Part shown: one piece after another, positions 9,007 to 36,906 of the stretch | Numbering within the stretch: the stretch's first letter is position 1 | How the letters are laid out: every line of letters starts with the position of its first letter | DNA from: a virus | IMG/VR virus record: IMGVR_UViG_3300042691_021608 | Coordinates: 1 to 36,906 of that record | Direction: 5' to 3' (one strand) | DNA length: 36,906 nt | The notes under the pieces: model-generated | Databases searched by the model: none | The model's input: only the letters and a program-made list of their open reading frames with translations | Told to the model about the DNA's origin: nothing | Made by a program: the position numbers and the translations under genes

Positions 9007-9028
9007 TCAAGCGAAGCAGGGGTTGAAG

Positions 9029-10195
9029 ATGTTTAACGAGTTTGCTACATATGAGCGAGCCGAAGGGGTGCTGGAAACACCGTCTTCGGCTCTAACCGAG
9101 GACGCGATGGAACCGCATCAGTCGGCTGCTGGCACCTTAGCCACGGCCACGCTCACATTCAAGTTTCGCCTGCGCGACAAACACGCCGCCGAACTCAACC
9201 GGCAGGCTCGCGCCGTGAACTATGTGTGGAACTTCTGTAACGAGACTCAGCAGAAGGCAGCGCGTTCCGGCAGGAAGTGGCTGTCCAAATACGATCTGCA
9301 AGACCTGACAGCAGGAGCCAGCAAAGAGTTAAACCTGCATGCTCACACTATTCAGCAGGTCTGCTGGACCTATGAGCGTTCTCGTAAGACTCACAAGAAG
9401 GCGTGGCTGAAATTCCGTGGCCGCAAGTCTCTTGGATGGGTGCCGTTCAACCAAGGACACGTTACCTTCGACGGCGCCGCCTTCACCTTCCGCAAGGTGC
9501 GCTATGAGCCGATGCATTCGCGTGAAGAACTGAAGCCGGGTACAAAGGTGCTGGCTGGTTCGTTCAACCAGGATGCGCGTGGCCGCTGGTACATCAATAT
9601 CCCGGTCGAAGTCCCCGCTTCAGAAGCGGCAGAGCGCCCAACTGTAGGCATCGATCTCGGCCTTCACGATCTTGCCACGCTGTCAGACGGCAACAAGATC
9701 GAGGCACCACGCCTCTATCGCGCCTCCGAAGAGAGGCTCGCAAAGGCACAGCGGGCAAAGAAAACCCCGAAGCGCGTCCGAAACATTCACGCGAAGATCG
9801 CCAACCGCCGCAAGGATCACTTGCACAAGGCATCGGCATCAATCGCGAAAACCTACGGGCTGATCATCGTTGGTGATGTCAGCGCAAAGAAACTCGCCAA
9901 GACCAGCATGGCGAAGAGCGTCCTCGACGCTGGCTGGTCGAGCTTCAAGTCAATGCTTGCATACAAGGCCATTAGGCATGGTGGGTGCATGATTGAAGCT
10001 GATGAGCGTTGGTCTACCCAGACTTGCTCTTGTTGCGGCTCACTACCGCCCGAGAGGCCGAAAGGTATCGCAGGTCTTGGAATAAGAGAATGGCGGTGCA
10101 GCGATTGCGGAACGGTCCACGACCGGGATGTCAACGCAGCCAAGAACATTCTCCGCGTGGGACAACACGCGCTTGCAGAAGGAGCCTCAGCATGA
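9029..10195 (+). CDS. tnpB: TnpB RNA-guided nuclease (IS605 OrfB)
   Basis: The protein is 388 aa. ATG 9029 is preceded by AGGGG at good spacing. It has the N-terminal OrfB helix-turn-helix region with LNRQARAVNYVWNFCNETQ, a RuvC-I motif VGIDLGLHDLATLSDG (Asp about 209), a zinc ribbon CSCCGS...WRCSDCG, and RuvC-III HDRDVNAAKN (Asp about 367). At the RuvC-II position the usual Glu of an IVVEDL-type motif is replaced: the sequence reads LIIVGDVSAKKLAKT. Acidic residues near 323-326 (IEADERW) may supply the missing ligand, as reported for TnpB variants with a rearranged catalytic site. The family cleaves DNA guided by an RNA from the element's 3' end. An extra N-terminal segment of about 40 residues precedes the usual start of homology. 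Confidence 0.85.
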   Translation: MFNEFATYERAEGVLETPSSALTEDAMEPHQSAAGTLATATLTFKFRLRDKHAAELNRQARAVNYVWNFCNETQQKAARSGRKWLSKYDLQDLTAGASKELNLHAHTIQQVCWTYERSRKTHKKAWLKFRGRKSLGWVPFNQGHVTFDGAAFTFRKVRYEPMHSREELKPGTKVLAGSFNQDARGRWYINIPVEVPASEAAERPTVGIDLGLHDLATLSDGNKIEAPRLYRASEERLAKAQRAKKTPKRVRNIHAKIANRRKDHLHKASASIAKTYGLIIVGDVSAKKLAKTSMAKSVLDAGWSSFKSMLAYKAIRHGGCMIEADERWSTQTCSCCGSLPPERPKGIAGLGIREWRCSDCGTVHDRDVNAAKNILRVGQHALAEGASA

Positions 10196-20112: not shown

Positions 20113-20710
20113 TGGCAACTCCACCGACCACACGCAGGAACTCAGCCTTTTGAGCGTCCCATGCGGCGGCCCGTGCGGCGTCCCATGCGGCGTCCCCTGC
20201 GGCGTCCCATGCGTCCCCTGCGGCGTCCCATGCGGCGTCCCCTGCGGCGTCCCCTGCGGCGGTCCCTGCGGCCCATGCGGCGGCCCATGCGGCGTCCCAT
20301 GCGGCGTCCCCTGCGGCGACCCATGCGGCGTCCCATGCGCCGTCCCCTGCGGCGTCCCCTGCGGCCCCTGCGGCGTCCCATGCGGCGGCCAGTTCCTTAT
20401 CCGTCGCATGTCCGTTGGCGTGGCGCTCGGCCACATCCAGTGCCGCGATACTGCGCTCGTCCGTCATCAGGTGCTGGACCTGACGGGCGCAGTAGACGGC
20501 AAACAGACGCCACTCGCGGGCGTGCTGCGGCTCGGCGCGGCAGCACCACAGTGCGTCATCGAGGCCGTTGATCTCGACAATGCGCGCGAACGGCAGCGGC
20601 TCATCATCTGCGTCGGTCTTGCCCAACCCCTTAAGCAGCTTCTGCCAGCCCTCGCGGCAGGGGCCGTGCGCCCGGATGCGGTTCAGTGTTGTTTCACAAA
20701 GATCACGCAT
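20105..20710 (-). CDS. Phage protein with Ala-Trp-Asp tetrad repeats
   Basis: ATG 20710 gives 201 aa. The N-terminal 125 residues (MRDLCETTLNRIRAHGPC, RIVEINGLDDALWCCRA, LFAVYCARQVQHLMTD, ALDVAERHANGHATDKELAA) form a conserved helical domain seen in many proteobacterial phages. Residues about 110-190 are four-residue repeats such as AWDA, AGDA and AAWA, then it ends KAEFLRVVGGVAND. The DNA repeats are 12-bp units in 20155-20385. The tetrad period suggests a helical rod or stacked structure. The function is not established. Confidence 0.7.
   Translation of the reverse strand: MRDLCETTLNRIRAHGPCREGWQKLLKGLGKTDADDEPLPFARIVEINGLDDALWCCRAEPQHAREWRLFAVYCARQVQHLMTDERSIAALDVAERHANGHATDKELAAAWDAAGAAGDAAGDGAWDAAWVAAGDAAWDAAWAAAWAAGTAAGDAAGDAAWDAAGDAWDAAGDAAWDAARAAAWDAQKAEFLRVVGGVAND
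20155..20385 (-). repeat. 12-bp tandem repeat encoding Ala/Trp/Asp/Gly tetrads
   Basis: Units of TGCGGCGTCCCA / TGCGGCGTCCCC recur with a few 9- and 6-bp interruptions over about 230 bp. Unit length is a multiple of three, so copy-number changes keep the frame. Confidence 0.85.
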
Positions 20711-27048: not shown

Positions 27049-29640
27049 ATGAAAAAGCCAAAATGGTGCGCAGATTCCGAGTGGAAACTCGTTCGCGCCA
27101 AGTATGAACGTAACGGGCAGATGCATTGCCAGCACCCTGGCTGCACGTTGTCAACGTCAGACACTGGCGTTGTATTCTCCCTCGATCACATCATCTCCCG
27201 TTTCAAGGGCGGAACGGATGAGGCCTCAAACCTCCAGCCGATGTGCCGCGATTGCAATGCTCGGAAAAACAAGTTTGCCGACAAATTCTGGTCGCGCCCG
27301 ACATACTTTGATAAGCAAATCTACACGAAATCGCTGCGCGTATCTCAGAACGATTTCGTCTATGAGCCAGTCATGCAGAACAGGGAATTCTTCTCGGAAC
27401 CTTGGTCAAGCATCAATGGCAAGCTCTTCTCTTATGTCCAGATCGTCGGCGCAGGAAAGACGCTCGGCATCTTCTCTCTTCCGTTCGCCCTGAATCAGGT
27501 TGCTGGAGGCCCCGCTGCCGGGGCACCGCGTGTGCAGCGAATGCTGGTTGTCACCAAAGACCAGCCGTTGCGCGCCCAGATCGCGCGCGAACTCATGGAG
27601 GAGCCAGAGAGGTTCGGCATCGTCAACACGGCGCCCGTGGTTCTGGAGATCAAAAGCCGGGATGACATCACCTCTGTTGGTGGCACAGATCACGATATCG
27701 CCGTCATGTGCCCCAACATGCTTTGGCCACAGATCGATCACGAAGACAGTCTCAAGATCAAGTTCGATGACGCTGTCCTCGACAGTGTTCTTTCGAGATA
27801 TCAGCTCATCGTGTTCGATGAAATGCACTATGCCTATGGCAACATCAGCAAGTTCGTGCGGATGGCCTCGACGGCGCTTGTTTTCGGATTCACCGCATCT
27901 CCTATGGATTCGGCTGGTGCACTGCTCTCCGATATCGTTCTCATGGGACAGGCATACGGCTATCGTGAAGCGATCATTCATGATCAATCAATGAAGGGCA
28001 TTTCAGCATTGCCGACCGGAGAGGTCGAGCCTGGAAAGAGTCGCTATGCGAACGTCACGATCATTTCAGCCGATGAACAGGTTGTTGACGGAGTTGCCCG
28101 CAATGACACGCAGCTGGCCGGTCTTCCTGCGGTAAAATCGGTATGCGATTGCGTCTGCAAGGAACTGCTTGAGTACGACACAAATGTCCATCGCCAGGAG
28201 CGCGTTGTTTCATCGCATCGGGAAATCCGTGGCTCATCATCGTCACGTAAGATCACGGTGGGAAATCATTTTCCGCCTCACGCCATCATCCGGGTGGACG
28301 ATGTCGATACTGCAAACGATGTGGCCGATTATCTGAACCATAAATTCAATGGCAATCGCGGCCTGTTTCCCAAGAAGATGGGCTGGGGCGCCATTGTCGT
28401 GGATGGCAGCGTCAAGGACTTCGATAGTGCACATGGGTTCTTTCGCTACAAGGAGAAGGGCTACCTCGACAGTCATTGCATCCGCATCATCGTCGTCATC
28501 AAGCGCGCCATAGAAGGCATGAACAACAAGTTCCTGTTGGTCGAGGGCCTTGCCGGGCGCTGTGATCGCGACAGCCGCGTGAAACAGGTTCAGATGCGCG
28601 GACGACTTATTCGCTCTACGGCCTACACTGAAAAGGATGACACGCTGGTGGTGCCGCCAAGGCATTTTGACCAGATCAAGATCATCACGCACGAAGCATT
28701 CCAGAACGTCACAGCTATCGATGATAGCCTCGACTTCATCACCAACATGAACTCCGCGATGAACGGAGTCATGACCATCGATGACTATGTCAACCTCGAC
28801 ACCGATCTTTCAGACGATGATGACGGCAACTATCGCCCGTCCTGCGCGTGGGAGACGCTCGTTGGCATCGGCCAGGATGTAGGTGAAGCAAGGATCAACG
28901 GGCGCCGGGTGAACGTGAATACGCTGGTGAAGAAGTATGCCAAGAACGTGAACCGCACGAAGGAAGGCTATATCCGCGCCATTATTCAGTCTGCGATTTC
29001 CAACTCTTCGCATCCATACCAGTACAAGAAGGATGGCGTCATTGAAGTGGGAGATGCTTCGTTCACCGACTTGTTCCTGCGCCGCATTTTTCCGGCGCTG
29101 CCCGATCCGCTGCAGATCGTGTCCAGCGAGAAGATCGCGCGCAAGGATATGGACGCGAAGGCATGTCATGAGTTCATGTCCTCGCGAACTGAACTCGCAG
29201 CGGCATACGGCCTTTACAAGAGTCTTCTAGATAACGGGCATCTTTCAGAAAGTAAATTCGTCCACATAGTGAACGGCATCGAAATCACAGTTCAGAACGT
29301 ACACACGGAAGCCGAACTCAACACCAAAGAAACAGCGATGGGCCGCGTGAACAGTTATGTCACCGAACTCGTCGCCCAGCTTTGCAACTCCGACAAGGAC
29401 GAAACACGGGCAGACTTTATTCAGCATCGCTACCACGAAGCCGTGGCGCATGTGCTGTCGAACCAGCCCGGCTTTACCGGGATGGCAGCCCTTGAGACGG
29501 ACGGCAGCCTCTGCACCCCGTCAGTTGTCCAGGCGCTCCGTGACGATGAACTGAAGGACCGCATTCGCGGCTGGGTTCTCATGGAAATGCTGAAGGCAAA
29601 ACTACTGTCGGAAATCGAAATTCTTGGCGTTATGTCGTGA
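27049..29640 (+). CDS. HNH nuclease - SF2 helicase fusion protein
   Basis: The protein is 863 aa. Residues about 26-76 form a zinc-bound HNH domain (HCQHPGC, FSLDHIISRFKGGTDEASNL, MCRDCNARKN). Helicase motifs follow: Walker A VGAGKT (133-138), DEMH box LIVFDEMHYAYG (253-264), motif III GFTASP (280-285), and motif VI QMRGRLIR (515-522). About 330 further residues have no recognised domain. It sits alone with its own promoter and a palindrome at its end, unlike the overlapping genes around it. It could be a replication or recombination helicase, but a nuclease-helicase fusion in a stand-alone transcript is also typical of defence or exclusion effectors. The role is unknown. Confidence 0.7.
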   Translation: MKKPKWCADSEWKLVRAKYERNGQMHCQHPGCTLSTSDTGVVFSLDHIISRFKGGTDEASNLQPMCRDCNARKNKFADKFWSRPTYFDKQIYTKSLRVSQNDFVYEPVMQNREFFSEPWSSINGKLFSYVQIVGAGKTLGIFSLPFALNQVAGGPAAGAPRVQRMLVVTKDQPLRAQIARELMEEPERFGIVNTAPVVLEIKSRDDITSVGGTDHDIAVMCPNMLWPQIDHEDSLKIKFDDAVLDSVLSRYQLIVFDEMHYAYGNISKFVRMASTALVFGFTASPMDSAGALLSDIVLMGQAYGYREAIIHDQSMKGISALPTGEVEPGKSRYANVTIISADEQVVDGVARNDTQLAGLPAVKSVCDCVCKELLEYDTNVHRQERVVSSHREIRGSSSSRKITVGNHFPPHAIIRVDDVDTANDVADYLNHKFNGNRGLFPKKMGWGAIVVDGSVKDFDSAHGFFRYKEKGYLDSHCIRIIVVIKRAIEGMNNKFLLVEGLAGRCDRDSRVKQVQMRGRLIRSTAYTEKDDTLVVPPRHFDQIKIITHEAFQNVTAIDDSLDFITNMNSAMNGVMTIDDYVNLDTDLSDDDDGNYRPSCAWETLVGIGQDVGEARINGRRVNVNTLVKKYAKNVNRTKEGYIRAIIQSAISNSSHPYQYKKDGVIEVGDASFTDLFLRRIFPALPDPLQIVSSEKIARKDMDAKACHEFMSSRTELAAAYGLYKSLLDNGHLSESKFVHIVNGIEITVQNVHTEAELNTKETAMGRVNSYVTELVAQLCNSDKDETRADFIQHRYHEAVAHVLSNQPGFTGMAALETDGSLCTPSVVQALRDDELKDRIRGWVLMEMLKAKLLSEIEILGVMS

Positions 29641-31276: not shown

Positions 31277-31336
31277 ATGAAAATCCAACACAACATCAAT
31301 GGTATAGGCACGCACGCGAGCGAAACAGGTGTCTGA
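31277..31336 (+). CDS. Possible 19-aa leader peptide before the primase-helicase
   Basis: ATG 31277 follows AAGGTGAG at good spacing and reads MKIQHNINGIGTHASETGV, ending inside the start region of the next gene. Possible translational coupling. The size allows little confidence. Confidence 0.25.
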   Translation: MKIQHNINGIGTHASETGV

Positions 31337-33608
31337 CATGCTGCTCGCATTTGGGAGAAACGGCGCTCGCGACACAGACCTGGTGTCAAAGGAATACACT
31401 TGGGAACAATTCGCGCAGAGGCTTTCCAAGCCCAGCATAGGGGCGAAGGATGGCAGCTATGTTGTTCGGGGCGGGAAACTACGCGAACCCAAGAGATCCG
31501 ACGAAAACCTCATGGAAGCGGAACTCCTGATTATTGACGGAGACAGCCGCTTTGACCTTGAGACAGGAGAAATTTTGCGCGGCGCACCGCCAATAGAACT
31601 GGCGAAAGCAGCCCTCGATGCGCTCAATTATCGGTATATCGTCCACACAAGTTATTCCTACGTGCCCGGCGAGGTGTGGAAATATCGTATTTTCATCCCT
31701 GCCAAGATAGCCGACACATTCGAACTTTCTGCAGCCGTCAATCTTGTCATTGATCAGCTAAACGCAAACGGCTGCCCAATCGTGGACGTAAAGGAAAACC
31801 ACACTTTCAGCCAGGCATGGTATCTTCCACGCTGCAAGCCGGAATACCTTGAGGCATTCAAGTGCTTCGCCAGCCTCACCGGCAAGGACGTGGATGTCAA
31901 CGCCGCCGTCAAGGCCCACAAAGCCCGCGCCAAGGCCGACGAAGCGTTAAGGGCACGGCAGGAGCAGCCGAAGCCGGAAGCCGCTCCAGAGGCCTCCAGG
32001 AACGGCGACGGGCCGATCGACACCTTCAACAAGGCGGCAACGATGGGCCTCGTCCGCAAAATGCTCGAAGACGCCGGATACAAGTTCGCGTTCAAGCGTG
32101 GCGACAGCCTGCGCTTCATGGCACCGCAATCCGAAACGCGCACAGCCGGTGTTACAGTTTTCAAGGGCCGCCAGCGCGGCGACATCGTGGCTTACTCCCA
32201 TCACGGTGCCCACGATCCCTTGAGCGGACGCCTCACGGACGCATTCGGCATCCTGTGGCACGTCACCTACGCGGGTGACCAGGAAGCCGCCCTGCAGCAC
32301 GCCAAGGGCGCCATCGGCTGGGCCAGCAAGCGCGATCCGCTCGCCGGGTTCGACGCCGTGGAGATCTCGCCAGAGGATTTTAACAAGGCCCGACCGGACG
32401 CCGAGAAGCCGGATGGGCAGAAGAAGCCCATTTTAGCCAACCCGTTCAGGCTGGTTGCCGAGGGTGATATTCCTCCCCGCCAGTGGGTCTACGGGCGTCA
32501 CCTGATCCGCCGGTTCGTCAGTGCCACCGTTGCCCCAGGTGGCGTGGGTAAGTCATCCCTGAGCTTCGTGGAGGCCATGGCAATGGCAACAGGTAAGCCG
32601 CTGCTGGGCGTGAAGATCGAAGTGCCGCTGAAGGTGTGGGTCTGGTGCCTGGAAGACCCCCGTGAGGAGCTTGATCGGCGTTTCACGGCTATCGCAAAGC
32701 ATTACGGGGTGGCCGGAAATGACATCGGTGACCGGCTGTTCCTGAATTCCGGGCGTGATACGCCATTGTGTGTCGCCCGGCAGGAGGCGCGCACCGGCAC
32801 TATCATCATCGAGCCTGACATGCCGCAGATGGAAGCGGAGATTGCCCGGCTTGGTATCGATGTGGTGGTCATCGATCCTTTCGTCGCCTCCCACATGGTG
32901 AGCGAGAACGACAATGTGGCCATCAATACCGTCATGCGTCAGTGGGTTCTGCTGGCAGAACGCTGCAACATAGCCATCGAACTGATCCACCATACCCGCA
33001 AGAACGGCGATGGCGAGGTTACAGCCGAAACCAGCCGTGGAGCCAAAGCCCTCACGGATGCAACGCGCGACACCCGCGTCATCAACCAGATGAGCGAGGC
33101 AGAGGGTGCCAGATTTGGTGTCGAGAACCGCCGCCTGCACTTCCGCACATACTCCGACAAGGCGAACCTCGCGCCGCCAGCCGAGCAGGCTGACTGGTAC
33201 AAGCTGGAGAATATTGCCCTGCTGAACGGTCCCGGTGGTCAACCGGGCGACTATGTGGGCGTGGCATCCAGGTGGGAGATTCCCGGCCCGTTTGCCAAGG
33301 TCAGCCGCGAAACCATCCACGCCCTCCTGACGGCCATCGACATCGGCGTCATCAACGGCGACGGACAGCAGACCGGAACACCCTACAGCCCCACAAAGCA
33401 GGGCCGCAGCAACGCCCGCTGGGTGGGCCAGGTCATCATGGATATCGCCACTATGGAAGAGCCGGAAGCGAAGCGGGCGATCGATGCCTGGGTGGCCTCT
33501 GGAGTACTGGTCGTCGCCGATTTTGAACATGGTCGGAAGACCGTCAAAGGCGTCTCAGTGAACAAGGCAGCGTGGTCGGAAATGGTGGAGGGTGCAAATG
33601 TCAGGTAG
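31329..33608 (+). CDS. Primase-helicase (RepA-like)
   Basis: The protein is 759 aa from GTG 31329 or ATG 31338. The N-terminal third looks like a primase-polymerase domain: LLIIDGDSRFDLETGE with D70 and D72, VWKYRIFIPAKI and FSQAWYLPRC. A charged linker (about 200-230) leads to a second small domain. The C-terminal half is a RecA-fold helicase with Walker A VAPGGVGKSSLSF (about 402-409), a WCLEDPREELDRR motif, Walker B DVVVIDPFV (D516), and HHTRKN, as in hexameric RepA/RSF1010-type helicases. It probably primes and unwinds at the origin found in the next gene. Its transcript has its own operator-like motif. Confidence 0.8.
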   Translation: MSDMLLAFGRNGARDTDLVSKEYTWEQFAQRLSKPSIGAKDGSYVVRGGKLREPKRSDENLMEAELLIIDGDSRFDLETGEILRGAPPIELAKAALDALNYRYIVHTSYSYVPGEVWKYRIFIPAKIADTFELSAAVNLVIDQLNANGCPIVDVKENHTFSQAWYLPRCKPEYLEAFKCFASLTGKDVDVNAAVKAHKARAKADEALRARQEQPKPEAAPEASRNGDGPIDTFNKAATMGLVRKMLEDAGYKFAFKRGDSLRFMAPQSETRTAGVTVFKGRQRGDIVAYSHHGAHDPLSGRLTDAFGILWHVTYAGDQEAALQHAKGAIGWASKRDPLAGFDAVEISPEDFNKARPDAEKPDGQKKPILANPFRLVAEGDIPPRQWVYGRHLIRRFVSATVAPGGVGKSSLSFVEAMAMATGKPLLGVKIEVPLKVWVWCLEDPREELDRRFTAIAKHYGVAGNDIGDRLFLNSGRDTPLCVARQEARTGTIIIEPDMPQMEAEIARLGIDVVVIDPFVASHMVSENDNVAINTVMRQWVLLAERCNIAIELIHHTRKNGDGEVTAETSRGAKALTDATRDTRVINQMSEAEGARFGVENRRLHFRTYSDKANLAPPAEQADWYKLENIALLNGPGGQPGDYVGVASRWEIPGPFAKVSRETIHALLTAIDIGVINGDGQQTGTPYSPTKQGRSNARWVGQVIMDIATMEEPEAKRAIDAWVASGVLVVADFEHGRKTVKGVSVNKAAWSEMVEGANVR

Positions 33609-34179
33609 CAACGATCAGCATGCCAATTGGTTCGATGAAGACCCCCCTAAAAAGCGCGCAATAGCTGAAACCGAATTGCGCACAATTGCGCAAAAGGGGG
33701 TGCGCAATTCACAGATCGCCTATAGGTCAGAGGTAATTGCGCAAGGGCGCGCAATAGACCCTCATGTATTCGGGCACTATTGCGCACCCGCAATTACCTC
33801 TGACCTATTTGGCGAGGGCGATCAGGCGTTGGCGGAACTGGAACTGGAGAAGAGACAGATCGAAGGAGCTATCGCAGAAAAATCAGAAGACGCGGCATTC
33901 ATGCAACGAGAAGTTGGGCCGTGGTATGACCTCCAGAAAATCCATGTCAGGGCCTTCAAAGAGGAGGTCGAACGGGAAGGATTCAAGGTCGGCGGAGAAC
34001 AGAGCGTCAACCGCCTCAGCCGGGTCGCTCATCTCGATGCCGTCCGTGCCAGCCTCCGTCAGGAGTTCAAGGAACTCGGTCGCCTGAACAACCACGTTAA
34101 GTCGCTCAAGAACCGGCTTCGCGGCGTCGAGGTCGAGATCAAGATCGTGAAGGGCAAGAGCAAGAGGAAAGCGAAATGA
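33598..34179 (+). CDS. Hypothetical protein carrying the origin-like DNA
   Basis: ATG 33598 follows GGAGG and overlaps the end of the primase-helicase gene, giving 193 aa. The first 70 residues are encoded by DNA filled with repeats and inverted arms. The rest is a long coiled coil: ELELEKRQIEGAIAEKSEDA, LDAVRASLRQEFKELGRLNN, SLKNRLRGVEVEIKIVKGKS. It ends very basic (KSKRKAK). It could bind the origin it encodes, as lambda O does, but no DNA-binding domain is recognised. The stop overlaps the next ATG (ATGA). Confidence 0.6.
   Translation: MSGSNDQHANWFDEDPPKKRAIAETELRTIAQKGVRNSQIAYRSEVIAQGRAIDPHVFGHYCAPAITSDLFGEGDQALAELELEKRQIEGAIAEKSEDAAFMQREVGPWYDLQKIHVRAFKEEVEREGFKVGGEQSVNRLSRVAHLDAVRASLRQEFKELGRLNNHVKSLKNRLRGVEVEIKIVKGKSKRKAK
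33656..33808. other. Putative phage replication origin
   Basis: Seven exact copies of GCGCAAT or its complement lie at 33656, 33675, 33685, 33702, 33736, 33749 and 33779. A pair of 20-bp perfect inverted arms begins ATAGGTCAGAGG (33722-33741, 33789-33808) and encloses inner arms GCGCAATAG/CTATTGCGC (33749-33757, 33777-33785). This is the architecture of an iteron origin within a coding gene, next to the primase-helicase. Confidence 0.65.
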
Positions 34180-34844
34180 CCCCGCCCGCAAAAGCACCCC
34201 GCCCGGAGCCGGGCGACAACGCCCCGGCTGAACGCATCAGCATCATGCCAGAACAAGACGGGCCACTCGCAGCCGCCCTCCGGGTCCGCGACAAGACCGT
34301 GGTCGAGTATGACGCCCGCTGGGGAACCGATGTCCTGCAGACGCTCGTCTCGCCCGCAACCGCTGCCCTGTTCGCTTCCGTAAGGGAACGTCTCGACGAG
34401 GCCATCAAAGCCGCCAACAAGGCTATCGACGATGCCAACAAGGCCACCGACGCCGCCAAAAAGGCAATCAGCTTGCAAGCTCACGCCGCAGCCCTCGACA
34501 TCGCCATCAACACCATGGCCGTCGAAATGCGCGGCCTTGCCAAAATGGAGAAGGACGCCCTGGCAGCCGGGCGCAAGCCGCTCGATCCCGGTCGAGCCTG
34601 GGCGTTCAAGCTGGCAGACGGAATGCAAGCCGTTCTCGTGCAGACCGACGAAGACGCCCGCGCCGCCCGCCGGTCGCAACGCTTCACCGGCTGGGTGATC
34701 TACTCGGTCAGCGAAATGGCCCACATCCTGTCAGAGCGTTCACTGACCGGCATCATCGATGCGAAGAAGGCGTTCCCCGATGCCACGGTCATCGCCGTCA
34801 AGACGCCGCCGGATTGGAAGCAAGGGGATGAGGTTTCGTTCTAA
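34176..34844 (+). CDS. Hypothetical helical protein
   Basis: ATG 34176 overlaps the preceding stop, giving 222 aa. It has a Pro-rich start, then a continuous Ala/Lys-rich helix (FASVRERLDEAIKAANKAID, DANKATDAAKKAISLQAHAA) and a C-terminal alpha/beta part (WVIYSVSEMAHILSERSLTG, FPDATVIAVKTPPDW). The helix resembles a coiled-coil stalk. It is the last clear gene of the rightward early operon. The function is unknown. Confidence 0.5.
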   Translation: MTPPAKAPRPEPGDNAPAERISIMPEQDGPLAAALRVRDKTVVEYDARWGTDVLQTLVSPATAALFASVRERLDEAIKAANKAIDDANKATDAAKKAISLQAHAAALDIAINTMAVEMRGLAKMEKDALAAGRKPLDPGRAWAFKLADGMQAVLVQTDEDARAARRSQRFTGWVIYSVSEMAHILSERSLTGIIDAKKAFPDATVIAVKTPPDWKQGDEVSF

Positions 34845-34893
34845 TGCCCCGCCAAGCCACAGAGAAGGCCGCTGGCGGCGATTTGCGACCGCC
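34844..34893 (+). pseudogene. Possible 5' remnant of an interrupted plus-strand gene
   Basis: ATG 34844 overlaps the previous stop and begins MPRQATEKAAGGDLRPPYAG. The frame then continues only antisense to the HigA-like gene. This is consistent with the toxin-antitoxin cassette having been inserted into, or replaced most of, a further early gene. Alternatively it is a chance overlap. Confidence 0.3.
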
Positions 34894-35202
34894 CTACGCC
34901 GGAACCAGCGTCGGGATACCAGAAACGTCTACAGCATGCTCTGCGTGCCACAGGTCATGGGCCGCTTGCATGTTGAGCCACAGCGCAGCCCCGTTGCCGC
35001 AAAGCTTGCCCAATCGCACCGCCGTTTCAGGCGTCACAGGCTGCCGACCAGCCAAAATGTCATACAGCGACTGCCGCGAGATCCCCATCAGCCGGGCAAT
35101 CTCGGCTTTCGGTCGCTTCAGCGCCGGAATAACCGTGTTTTCAAGAACGATGCCCGGATGCGTCGGTGCCCGGTTAAAATTGCGGTTTGTTCTACGTTTC
35201 AT
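34894..35202 (-). CDS. higA: HigA-like antitoxin (XRE family)
   Basis: The protein is 102 aa on the minus strand. It matches the HigA signature: APTHPGIVLENTVIPAL, IARLMGISRQSLYDILAGRQ (helix-turn-helix), PVTPETAVRLGKLCGNGAAL and WLNMQAAHDLWHA. HigA proteins repress their operon and neutralise the HigB RNase. No higB is adjacent: the gene upstream is hicB, 6 bp away. It may be an orphan antitoxin or a third component of the HicAB operon. Confidence 0.8.
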   Translation of the reverse strand: MKRRTNRNFNRAPTHPGIVLENTVIPALKRPKAEIARLMGISRQSLYDILAGRQPVTPETAVRLGKLCGNGAALWLNMQAAHDLWHAEHAVDVSGIPTLVPA

Positions 35203-35208
35203 GCTTGG

Positions 35209-35541
35209 TCATCTTGCAGCATCCGCAATAATCTCTTCCGCCCATTGGTTCAGGCTTTTGCCTGCCAATTTGGCACGCAAGGCAGCTCGCGCATGAACCT
35301 CCGGGGAAAAACGAAACATCACCTTGCCGGAATATGGACGCTCCGGTGCCTTGCCCACCGCTTTGCAGGTCTCCACGTAATCGTCGACAGCCTCCGCAAA
35401 AGCTGCGCGCAGCCCTTCAACCGTGTCACCGTGGAAACCCACGATATCGTTGATCCCGGCAATATGCCCAACGAAGCAACCATCATCGGAAGCAAAGTCG
35501 ATCCGGGCGCTGTATCCGTTATATTCCATCACGTTTTTCAT
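35209..35541 (-). CDS. hicB: HicB antitoxin
   Basis: The protein is 110 aa. It has the degenerate RNase H-like fold sequence YNGYSARIDFASDDGCFVGH, then HIAGINDIVGFHGDTVEGLR and AFAEAVDDYVETCKAVGKAP, followed by a ribbon-helix-helix tail (KVMFRFSPEVHARAALRAKL, GKSLNQWAEEIIADAA). HicB binds HicA and the operator. It starts inside the hicA stop (ATGA), the usual toxin-first order. Confidence 0.9.
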   Translation of the reverse strand: MKNVMEYNGYSARIDFASDDGCFVGHIAGINDIVGFHGDTVEGLRAAFAEAVDDYVETCKAVGKAPERPYSGKVMFRFSPEVHARAALRAKLAGKSLNQWAEEIIADAAR

Positions 35542-35792
35542 GGTCTGATTCCCAATGCTCCAAGGAAGTTGCGCGCGTCTTCAACCTGGTATCTCTTCGC
35601 CTCTTTCGTAGGGTGCGGCCGATGGAAGGTTGCCACGATGCCGTTCAATTCGAACTTGACCCGTGACCCGCTACCTTCGATGACGCGGCAGCCGCATCCA
35701 ACGAGCAATCGTTCGATGTCGTTCCACGCGATGCCGGGGTTCGTCGGTTTCGCGAATACCTGTTCCAGCGTCTTTCGTTGCTTCCCGTTCAT
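35538..35792 (-). CDS. hicA: HicA mRNA interferase toxin
   Basis: The protein is 84 aa, with dsRBD-like fold motifs ERLLVGCGCRVIEGSGSRVK, FELNGIVATFHRPHPTKE and YQVEDARNFLGALGI. This is the HicA class with SRVxF and FHRPHP motifs. The canonical GSH His is not at the usual place; His in FHRPHP may act instead. The ATG at 35792 abuts the operator, leaving no room for a ribosome site, so it may be read from a leaderless mRNA. Confidence 0.85.
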   Translation of the reverse strand: MNGKQRKTLEQVFAKPTNPGIAWNDIERLLVGCGCRVIEGSGSRVKFELNGIVATFHRPHPTKEAKRYQVEDARNFLGALGIRP

Positions 35793-35826
35793 GCTATCAA
35801 TATATGATAGCGTTGCGATTGTTCAA
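35793..35826 (-). promoter_or_regulatory. hicAB promoter and operator
   Basis: The inverted repeat GCTATCA-ATATA-TGATAGC (35793-35811) overlaps a minus-strand -10 box TATATT (35804-35799). The -35 box TTGAAC is at 35826-35821, 16 bp away. The -10 box ends 6 nt before the hicA ATG, so transcription would start at about the first base of the gene. Confidence 0.65.
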
Positions 35827-35845
35827 GGAGAAAGTTGGTGCGCCC

Positions 35846-36145
35846 ATGAAACAGGTTGACCCCTACTACCGCAGCCCGGCATGGGAAGCCCTGCGCAAGG
35901 CAGCCCTCAAGGCCGCACACTGGCGATGCGCCGACTGCGGCCAGGGTGTACGCGGCCAAGCCGCCGGGCAATCCCGCCCCATCGTGGACCACATCGTGCC
36001 ACGCCGCAAAGGCGGATCAGACGCGATGCACAATCTTCGAGTGCTTTGCCTTCCATGCCACAATCGCAAGACACATTGGGAAGACCGAAACACCCATGAG
36101 CAGACCGGCGCAGATGGGTTCCCAGTGGGCAAGGGCTGGGGGTAG
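35846..36145 (+). CDS. HNH endonuclease
   Basis: The start is set at ATG 35846 (MKQVDPYYRSPAWEALRKAA); ATG 35804 is possible but lies in the hicAB operator. This gives 99 aa. It is the compact phage HNH: HWRCADCGQ (zinc Cys pair), RPIVDHIVPRRKGGSDAMHN (DH motif), LRVLCLPCHNRKT (second Cys pair and HNH). Small HNH proteins of this type are usually just upstream of terminase genes and help DNA packaging or cos cleavage, so the packaging genes may lie beyond the right edge. Confidence 0.85.
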   Translation: MKQVDPYYRSPAWEALRKAALKAAHWRCADCGQGVRGQAAGQSRPIVDHIVPRRKGGSDAMHNLRVLCLPCHNRKTHWEDRNTHEQTGADGFPVGKGWG

Positions 36146-36160
36146 GGGTGGGGGTAGGGG
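36133..36160 (+). other. G-quadruplex motif across the HNH stop codon
   Basis: There are five G-runs of 3-5 bases separated by 1-2 nt (GGG CT GGGGG TA GGGG T GGGGG TA GGGG). The sequence meets the standard G4 pattern on the plus strand. The TAG stop at 36143-36145 lies between the runs. Confidence 0.6.
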
Positions 36161-36218
36161 TGGTGGCCGCTACCACCCCACATGCCCCTGTTAAAAACGC
36201 CGCCAGCGGCCTTCCTTG

Positions 36219-36467
36219 TCAATCCTTGGGCCAATCTATCGGGCGATATCCGGCAAGGTATGCTTCCATCAGCCTCACCATTCGCGGCGCCGGTGCCCGG
36301 TGCGTTGACTGGCTCGGGTCGCTCTCAATCGCCCGCAGCGACCTCGGATCTGTGTCAAGCATGACAGCCAACTCAGTCAGCGACAGCCCCAACTCCTCAC
36401 GCGCCGCCTTGAACTGGTCGTGATCCCAGAAAATCCTGTTCGGCTTTACCTGATTGATCGTATTCAT
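36219..36467 (-). CDS. XRE-family helix-turn-helix protein
   Basis: ATG 36467 follows AAAGGGAAAAA, giving 82 aa; the longer frame extends into AT-rich non-coding DNA. The core FKAAREELGLSLTELAVMLD, TDPRSLRAIESDP is a helix-turn-helix of the Cro/XRE group, ending AYLAGYRPIDWP. It lies by itself on the minus strand next to repeats that could be its operators. It is probably a repressor of packaging-side or lysogeny genes. Confidence 0.75.
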   Translation of the reverse strand: MNTINQVKPNRIFWDHDQFKAAREELGLSLTELAVMLDTDPRSLRAIESDPSQSTHRAPAPRMVRLMEAYLAGYRPIDWPKD

Positions 36468-36628
36468 GTTTTTCCCTTTTTGCAGTCGTGAAATTTTAAC
36501 TTGAGTTCTGTTTCGATTGGTCCGCCGGTAGAAAAAATCAAAATCGATTTTCCCCCGGAAAATAATATTTCTGGGAGGCAAATTTTTTTTCAAAATGCCA
36601 CTATACCCCCCAAAGTTGTTCTCCTCGA
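36468..36628. promoter_or_regulatory. AT-rich non-coding region upstream of the XRE gene
   Basis: No gene is seen. The stretch is much more AT-rich than the rest of the window, with runs such as AAATAATATTT, and should contain the leftward promoter of the XRE gene. A specific -35/-10 pair is not assigned. Confidence 0.4.
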
Positions 36629-36728
36629 CCCCCCCCTATATCAGTCCGATATATGCCAATCCGATATATGCCAGCCCGATATAGCCCCCCCTATATCAAT
36701 CCGGCATATATCGGATCGATATATATCC
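36629..36728. repeat. Iteron-like CCGATATATGCC repeats
   Basis: ATCCGATATATGCC-type units occur at 36645-36657 and 36660-36672, a degenerate one follows near 36675, and an exact inverted copy lies at 36703-36716. Two copies of CCCCCCCTATATCA(G/A)TCCG start at 36630 and 36685. No coding frame is supported. Confidence 0.75.
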
Positions 36729-36761
36729 AAGCCATTGATTTTGCTTGGTTTTCCTTTCCGA

Positions 36762-36906
36762 TGCCAGCCCGGTGGATCGGTGCCAGCCCGGTGGATCGGT
36801 GCCAGCCCGGTGGATCGGTGCCAGCCCGGTGGATCGGTGCCAGCCCGGTGCCAGCCCGGTGGATCGGTGCCAGCCCGGTGCCAGCCCGGTGGATCGGTGC
36901 CAGCCC
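36762..36906. repeat. 19-bp tandem repeat running off the window
   Basis: The unit TGCCAGCCCGGTGGATCGG is present in six full copies. Two 11-bp short copies (TGCCAGCCCGG) alternate with full ones after the fourth, and a partial copy meets the edge. The full extent cannot be known. Confidence 0.9.

Follow-up and report, generated by a model that had tools for sequence, protein, structure and literature searches.

Archaeal pRN1 encodes a replication protein, ORF904, in which an AEP primase and a helicase are followed by a C-terminal winged helix; a stem-loop of about 100 bp, whose structure but not sequence is conserved and which has no iteron structure, lies 54 bp past the rep stop codon, and a similar origin has been proposed for Bordetella phage BIP-1 (PMC4234260). 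In satellite phage P4, too, one protein, alpha, is both primase and helicase and binds the repeats of the origin by its C-terminal winged helix, and the oriV of RSF1010 carries iterons together with the hairpins ssiA and ssiB (PMC4234260). Proteins of the PrimQH family (PrimPol-PV1 supergroup) consist of a primase, a PriCT or Zn-binding domain, a RepA-type helicase and a winged helix; the authors of that family suggested that the winged helix may recognise origins, and identified no origin (PMC5862659).

The DNA analysed here is the whole of a viral record of 36,906 nucleotides (IMGVR_UViG_3300042691_021608; hereafter the window), a fragment with tail genes on the left and early genes on the right. 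An array of short, regularly placed repeats, as in iteron origins, lies beside the putative initiator gene, beginning 48 bp past the stop codon of a 759-aa primase-helicase. Judging from sequence comparisons, this array is very probably the replication origin of the phage, of an iteron and hairpin type, and bound by the helicase's own winged helix. The features concerned are the following.

31329 to 33608, plus strand: primase-helicase, 759 aa (Pfam AAA_25, 5e-37; RSF1010 RepA 1g8y profile match, 4e-31; AlphaFold pLDDT 86), with a primase-like (AEP) fold at residues 1-212, a zinc-ribbon-like part at 226-333, an RSF1010 RepA-type hexameric helicase at 378-620 and a winged helix at 650-759
33276 to 33605, plus strand: C-terminal winged helix (residues 650-759), candidate iteron reader, wing tip 735-737 (DSSP of the model; base-residue association)
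33598 to 34179, plus strand: ORF of 194 aa when begun at ATG 33598 (alternative start GTG 33592); it overlaps the end of the helicase gene and spans the array (open frame in relatives)
33654 to 33814, no strand: putative replication origin, iteron and hairpin array (repeats, inverted repeats, folding, position in relatives)
33656 to 33662, minus strand: iteron 1, ATTGCGC (exact repeat)
33675 to 33682, plus strand: iteron 2, ATTGCGCA (exact repeat)
33685 to 33692, plus strand: iteron 3, ATTGCGCA (exact repeat)
33701 to 33708, minus strand: iteron 4, ATTGCGCA (exact repeat)
33736 to 33743, plus strand: iteron 5, ATTGCGCA, within the long 5' arm (exact repeat)
33749 to 33755, minus strand: iteron 6, ATTGCGC, inner stem (exact repeat)
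33779 to 33786, plus strand: iteron 7, ATTGCGCA, inner stem (exact repeat)
33789 to 33795, minus strand: half-iteron 8, degenerate, AATTGCG, within the long 3' arm (inverted-repeat arm)
33656 to 33681, no strand: hairpin 1, iterons 1 and 2 (ssDNA fold)
33684 to 33709, no strand: hairpin 2, iterons 3 and 4, 9-bp perfect stem (inverted repeat and fold)
33722 to 33808, no strand: hairpin 3, with a perfect 20-bp outer stem (33722-33741/33789-33808) and an inner stem (33749-33757/33777-33785) (fold; arm covariation in relatives)
34176 to 34844, plus strand: conserved next gene (BLASTP 1e-9 to the gene downstream of the array in the related contig L089)

An earlier note on this DNA had reported seven copies of GCGCAAT/ATTGCGC and nested arms of 20 and 9 bp after the primase-helicase, and its coordinates proved right: GCGCAAT occurs exactly on the plus strand at 33656, 33702 and 33749 and on the minus strand at 33675, 33685, 33736 and 33779, giving seven copies in 33656-33785, to which a degenerate eighth half-site (33789-33795) can be added. 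With 10 copies in the entire window the motif is not enriched in total, only clustered. A 7-mer present at least seven times per 130 bp was found at three places in the window, namely the array and, at 20.2 kb and 36.8 kb, two runs of simple tandem repeats. The claim that this density exceeds any coding need was borne out when the host ORF was recoded synonymously 3000 times: neither GCGCAAT nor any other 7-mer ever reached more than 4 copies. The 20-bp pair of hairpin 3 is the longest short-range perfect inverted repeat of the window, with the 9-bp pair (33749-33757/33777-33785) nested in it, and the predicted ssDNA fold of 33640-33820 has an energy of -56 kcal/mol as against -27.5 +/- 3.1 for shuffles (z -9.1). 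This ssDNA fold comprises three hairpins, with a pair of iterons making up each. No stretch exceeds 58% A+T in 33400-36450 of the window, and an AT-rich stretch (68% A+T) adjoins the array of a related Rhodoplanes element. DnaA boxes did not rise above chance, their count being below expectation, an Rfam search at the array gave 0 matches and a tRNA scan none, and promoter and terminator scans found nothing at the array itself.

By both fold and sequence the helicase is a member of the RSF1010-type RepA family: RepA (1g8y/1nlf/1olo) was the sole match in a PDB profile search (E 4e-31) and the best Foldseek match of the model, which was computed by AlphaFold from an alignment of 40 sequences (pLDDT 86). 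The helicase domain is RepA-type and not the SF3 domain of pRN1-type replication proteins. In the model, DSSP assigns to the winged helix three helices (660-672, 695-707 and 711-724) and two strands (727-734 and 737-744). When the N-terminal 333 residues were modelled separately (pLDDT 90), the best VIA match was RSF1010 RepB' (3h20; Z 8.4, rmsd 5.0 over 154 residues), and residues 226-333 matched the DnaG zinc-binding domain 1d0q with Z 7.9; because VIA rates Z values near 8 as borderline, these likenesses are only suggestive. Pfam gave no match for the primase-like N-terminal domain, and Foldseek alone no significant one. The predicted structure would unite, suggestively as regards the primase part, folds like those of RSF1010 RepB' and RepA with a winged helix.

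The nearest parallel to the array is the pRN1 origin. In both systems a primase-helicase-winged-helix protein is followed by a stem-loop just after its gene (at 48 bp in the window), and structure is kept while sequence varies, but the pRN1 helicase belongs to SF3 and the window's to the RepA type, and the stems of the window are built from iterons that appear tied to the winged helix. RSF1010 provides the closest solved structures for both enzyme domains and also has iterons and hairpins at its origin; it differs in its iteron sequences and in using three separate proteins, whereas the candidate reader of the window is a winged helix carried by the helicase. A RepC-like gene was not seen among the neighbouring ORFs scanned, which are part of the ORFs of a fragment. 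Satellite phage P4, compared by description, shares the single primase-helicase with a C-terminal winged helix, whose role as reader is putative in the window, but combines a TOPRIM primase with another helicase where the window has AEP-like and RepA-type domains. The domain order of PrimQH, again by description, is common with that of the window protein. The likeness to lambda O drawn in the earlier note holds in so far as iterons lie in the coding sequence of a replication module; it is a loose analogy, because the lambda iterons are within the initiator gene and those of the window, only in this clade, are in a small gene after the helicase that is not the initiator.

A search with the helicase half yielded seven contigs at 66-75% identity, all of which carry an array at matching offsets from the helicase stop. 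The repeats start at 48, 67, 77, 94, 128, 141 and 171 in the window, at 46, 66, 76, 93, 127, 140 and 170 in L094, and at 48, 68, 78, 95, 128 and 172 in L089, where the sixth is missing. The iteron unit of L089, L094 and L095 is the ATTGCGCA of the window, that of L092 and L093 is ATTCCGCA and that of L090/L091 is TTTGCGCA, the last two being altered in most copies. Since MAFFT misplaces the 3' arm when aligning the array, arm pairing was counted outward from the iteron core. Over 12 positions, long arms pair with their own partner at 12 in the window, 9 in L092, 11 in L093 and 11 in L094, compared with 3-5 of 12 when arms are crossed between the window's clade and the other types. In L089 and L090 the long arms pair only if bulges or mismatches are allowed, so that shift-free covariation is found in four of six (window, L092, L093 and L094). 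From these comparisons, the spacing and structure of the array appear conserved while its sequence turns over. Conservation of the repeats in relatives had been named beforehand as the test on which the idea of an origin could fail; the idea survived, with offsets and architecture kept and sequence not.

In the window and in L089, L090, L092, L093 and L094 (6/6), the +1 frame stays open, starting ahead of the helicase stop and reaching about +530-580, and the other two frames have several stops in most of these six. The product of the small ORF has a conserved, coiled-coil-like C-terminal part and an N-terminal, array-encoded part that varies with the iterons; it is 41% identical to its L090 homologue over 168 aa, and no match to it was found in GenBank phages. 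The codon score of the array part falls below that of every chunk of this phage's known genes, which is expected if DNA function dictates the letters. The embedding in a coding gene put forward in the earlier note is real and restricted to the window's clade, of which it is a local feature, since 53 of 80 array-positive representatives have no open frame at the array; most other arrays are intergenic.

Single-protein searches of viral contigs with the helicase or the small ORF returned no relatives, and alignments were needed. The wider family was studied through 110 helicase representatives (from viral contigs, genomes and plasmids, dereplicated at 70% identity), a 160-bp stretch being counted as an array if its inverted 7-mer pairs numbered at least 6. 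At +60 bp from the helicase stop an array is present in 79% of the 110, as against 0-8% at nearly all positions beyond about 300 bp, and the best inverted-repeat window of the locus sits there in 79/110, where about 3% would be expected. The array region also folds better than other stretches of its locus, with a mean z of -1.8 in array-positive loci and -0.3 in array-negative ones. Downstream genes vary among the relatives; array and helicase stay together.

About one fifth of the representatives have no obvious array at the helicase stop. A repeat cluster lies 0.3-2.2 kb past the stop in four loci (L018:7462-7587, L030:4603-4788, L015:9130-9234 and L037:8383-8506), which looks like the outcome of gene insertions between the helicase and its array. 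Phage ctyzp037 (MW202711) has seven ACGTTCA repeats within the helicase gene itself, in the primase-helicase linker (L003:5000-5105), which are possibly an origin inside an initiator gene, or else a coding repeat.

Genomic matches named by title come nearly all from alphaproteobacteria, which suggests the host range of the family. Some relatives are circular extrachromosomal elements. For pVL1_6 and the Rhodoplanes element no other replication initiator is listed in gene tables that are incomplete, and another array-bearing relative, NZ_CP141051, also has repB/repC plasmid genes. The proposal of an origin gained comparative support from the position in 79% of the 110 representatives, the maintained architecture and the predictability of iteron bases from the winged helix; it gained none from GC skew, which gave no informative signal in the window and did not point to the array in four circular relatives.

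The relation between protein and repeats was examined over 80 arrays. Iterons mostly fit the pattern NTKNNGCA, an 8-mer of this type occurring at least 3 times in 47 arrays and in 0/236 control regions. The partial correlation of iteron similarity is 0.18 with the C-terminal domain and 0.07 with the helicase core. In a permutation test over 342 columns, two C-terminal ones, 680 and 736, exceeded all 500 permutations (0/500). Column 680 is Q or R in most members, usually 4-5 residues before W698, and column 736 is a wing residue. At column 680, R is associated with a C as base 1 (12/12), Q with a G (25/30) and K with a T (2/2). Base 5 follows wing residue 738, being G for M or N, C or A for K or H, and A for R. 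Among 687 column states R680 was the best for base 1 in independent pairs (4 agreeing, 0 opposed and 1 showing no difference), the tree being that of the helicase core minus the C-terminal domain. The phylogenetic independent-pairs tests by themselves comprise few pairs (p about 0.03-0.13). C440 and K737 were left unused, as both were picked by base 1 and base 3 alike and are clade markers, and iteron base 4 had no convincing association with protein columns.

A fixed rule was applied to 20 fresh helicases less than 90% identical to any earlier one, 15 of which carry an NTKNNGCA-type array; on these 15 held-out arrays, base 1 was correct in 14/14 and base 5 in 9/11. This held-out prediction is the strongest, though indirect, evidence that the helicase itself may bind the repeats. 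Over some 80 lineages, the iteron sequence and the presumed DNA-reading tip of the helicase seem to change together, so that one is largely predictable from the other. It is in the clade of the window itself that the residue code is hardest to make out. This clade carries an insertion at column 680: the column falls at a gap, and the residue of the window there is alignment-dependent, of low confidence in the model and not reliable.

The primase half follows another course. It is unrelated in L089, L091 and L094 (18-20% identity), is replaced by a Pfam Prim-Pol domain in L189, L239 and L241, and L005 and L008 have TOPRIM as a separate gene. Phages with the window's primase half (41-48%) but another C-terminal region have arrays of CGTGACA and CGGGACA. 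As the primase half is swapped freely and iterons differ with the C-terminal region, the array type goes with the C-terminal half of the helicase.

What was computed here is the array itself, the conservation of its position, the persistence of its structure as the sequence turns over, and the power of wing residues to predict iteron bases. A mechanism can be proposed in which the winged helix of the primase-helicase would bind the seven or eight iterons (NTKNNGCA pattern, here ATTGCGCA), arranged as three inverted pairs directly downstream of the protein's own gene. Iteron binding would load the RepA-type hexameric helicase and lead to unwinding, and once single strands are exposed the inverted pairs would fold into hairpins on them, at which the N-terminal, RepB'-like primase would prime. 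Direct binding, a replication start at the array and hairpin priming are what we infer from the sequences; loading, unwinding and priming are suggested by the domains and by analogy with RSF1010, P4 and pRN1 (PMC4234260). One polypeptide would then cover the roles of RSF1010's RepC (iteron binding), RepA (helicase) and RepB' (primase).

The same sequence signal would arise if the winged helix, or another protein, bound the repeats as an operator array regulating downstream transcription and not replication, and in most relatives the array does sit between two genes of one operon. We consider this improbable: the single weak sigma-70-like match in the region is on the opposite strand and outside the array, the genes that would be regulated differ among relatives that keep array and helicase together, and eight sites with long conserved hairpins exceed the need of an operator. 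The two roles are not exclusive, many origins doubling as operators.

It is still less probable that the true origin lies elsewhere, for instance in the tandem repeats of 36630-36906, and that the array is an auxiliary site for partition or helicase loading. Satellite phage P4 needs two separated repeat regions, a parallel in favour of such an arrangement, and 36762-36906 offers about seven direct repeats of 17-19 bp with an AT-rich leader and an adjoining HTH regulator. The 36.8-kb tandem repeat is found in 0/246 other loci searched, whereas the array is conserved, and its place at the contig end beside a repressor-like gene would fit an operator. The segment 36630-36906 as a whole contains the AT-rich leader, palindromes of TATATC type and the tandem repeats (CGGTGCCAGCCCGGTGGAT), which run off the contig end; the HTH_3-type regulator beside it is on the minus strand (ORF 36219-36593).

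Strong hairpins directly past a stop codon could also be a terminator or an RNA element ending the helicase transcript, which we regard as very unlikely, given that the long hairpin is not followed by a T-run, that the sole terminator-like match is on the minus strand and at chance level, that Rfam has no match, that the transcript runs on into a gene whose frame crosses the hairpins, and that iteron sequence tracks the DNA-binding domain of a protein. A mobile palindrome (REP, MITE or Rickettsia-palindrome-like) inserted in frame into the small gene, to which the perfect 20-bp inverted repeat in an ORF and a codon use unlike that of phage genes might point, is scarcely credible and was dropped, there being one copy in the window, no scattered copies of that element in the relatives, and, in close relatives, the same position and spacing with coordinated iteron changes and wholly different arm sequences.

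On the preferred reading, that of an origin recognised by the helicase, the window probably represents a widespread family of alphaproteobacterial phage, prophage and phage-plasmid replicons in which a RepA-type helicase with a winged helix would serve as origin recogniser, the iterons turn over fast under a two-residue code, and one clade has its origin running through an ORF. In the literature, subscription papers aside, we found no description of the origin of this helicase family or of a residue-base code. Such a family would open a sequence-only route to the origins of many uncultured phages and phage-plasmids, with iteron specificity assignable from the protein, and would form a bacterial RepA-helicase counterpart to the archaeal stem-loop origin of pRN1. 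An initiator and about eight copies of its site changing together would also constitute a natural data set for the old question of iteron divergence and compatibility.

Other regions of the window carry further features. A 12-bp repeat (GCGTCCCATGCG) occurs 20 times at 20154-20388, in overlapping ORFs on both strands. The stretch 9023-10195, flanked by the tape measure gene and by further tail genes, encodes an IS605 OrfB/TnpB-type protein (Cas12f1-like_TNB, 5e-23), beside which Rfam found no RNA. Finally, 27049-29640 encodes a protein of 863 aa that has an HNH nuclease at its N-terminus and, in addition, a type III restriction/helicase-like domain.
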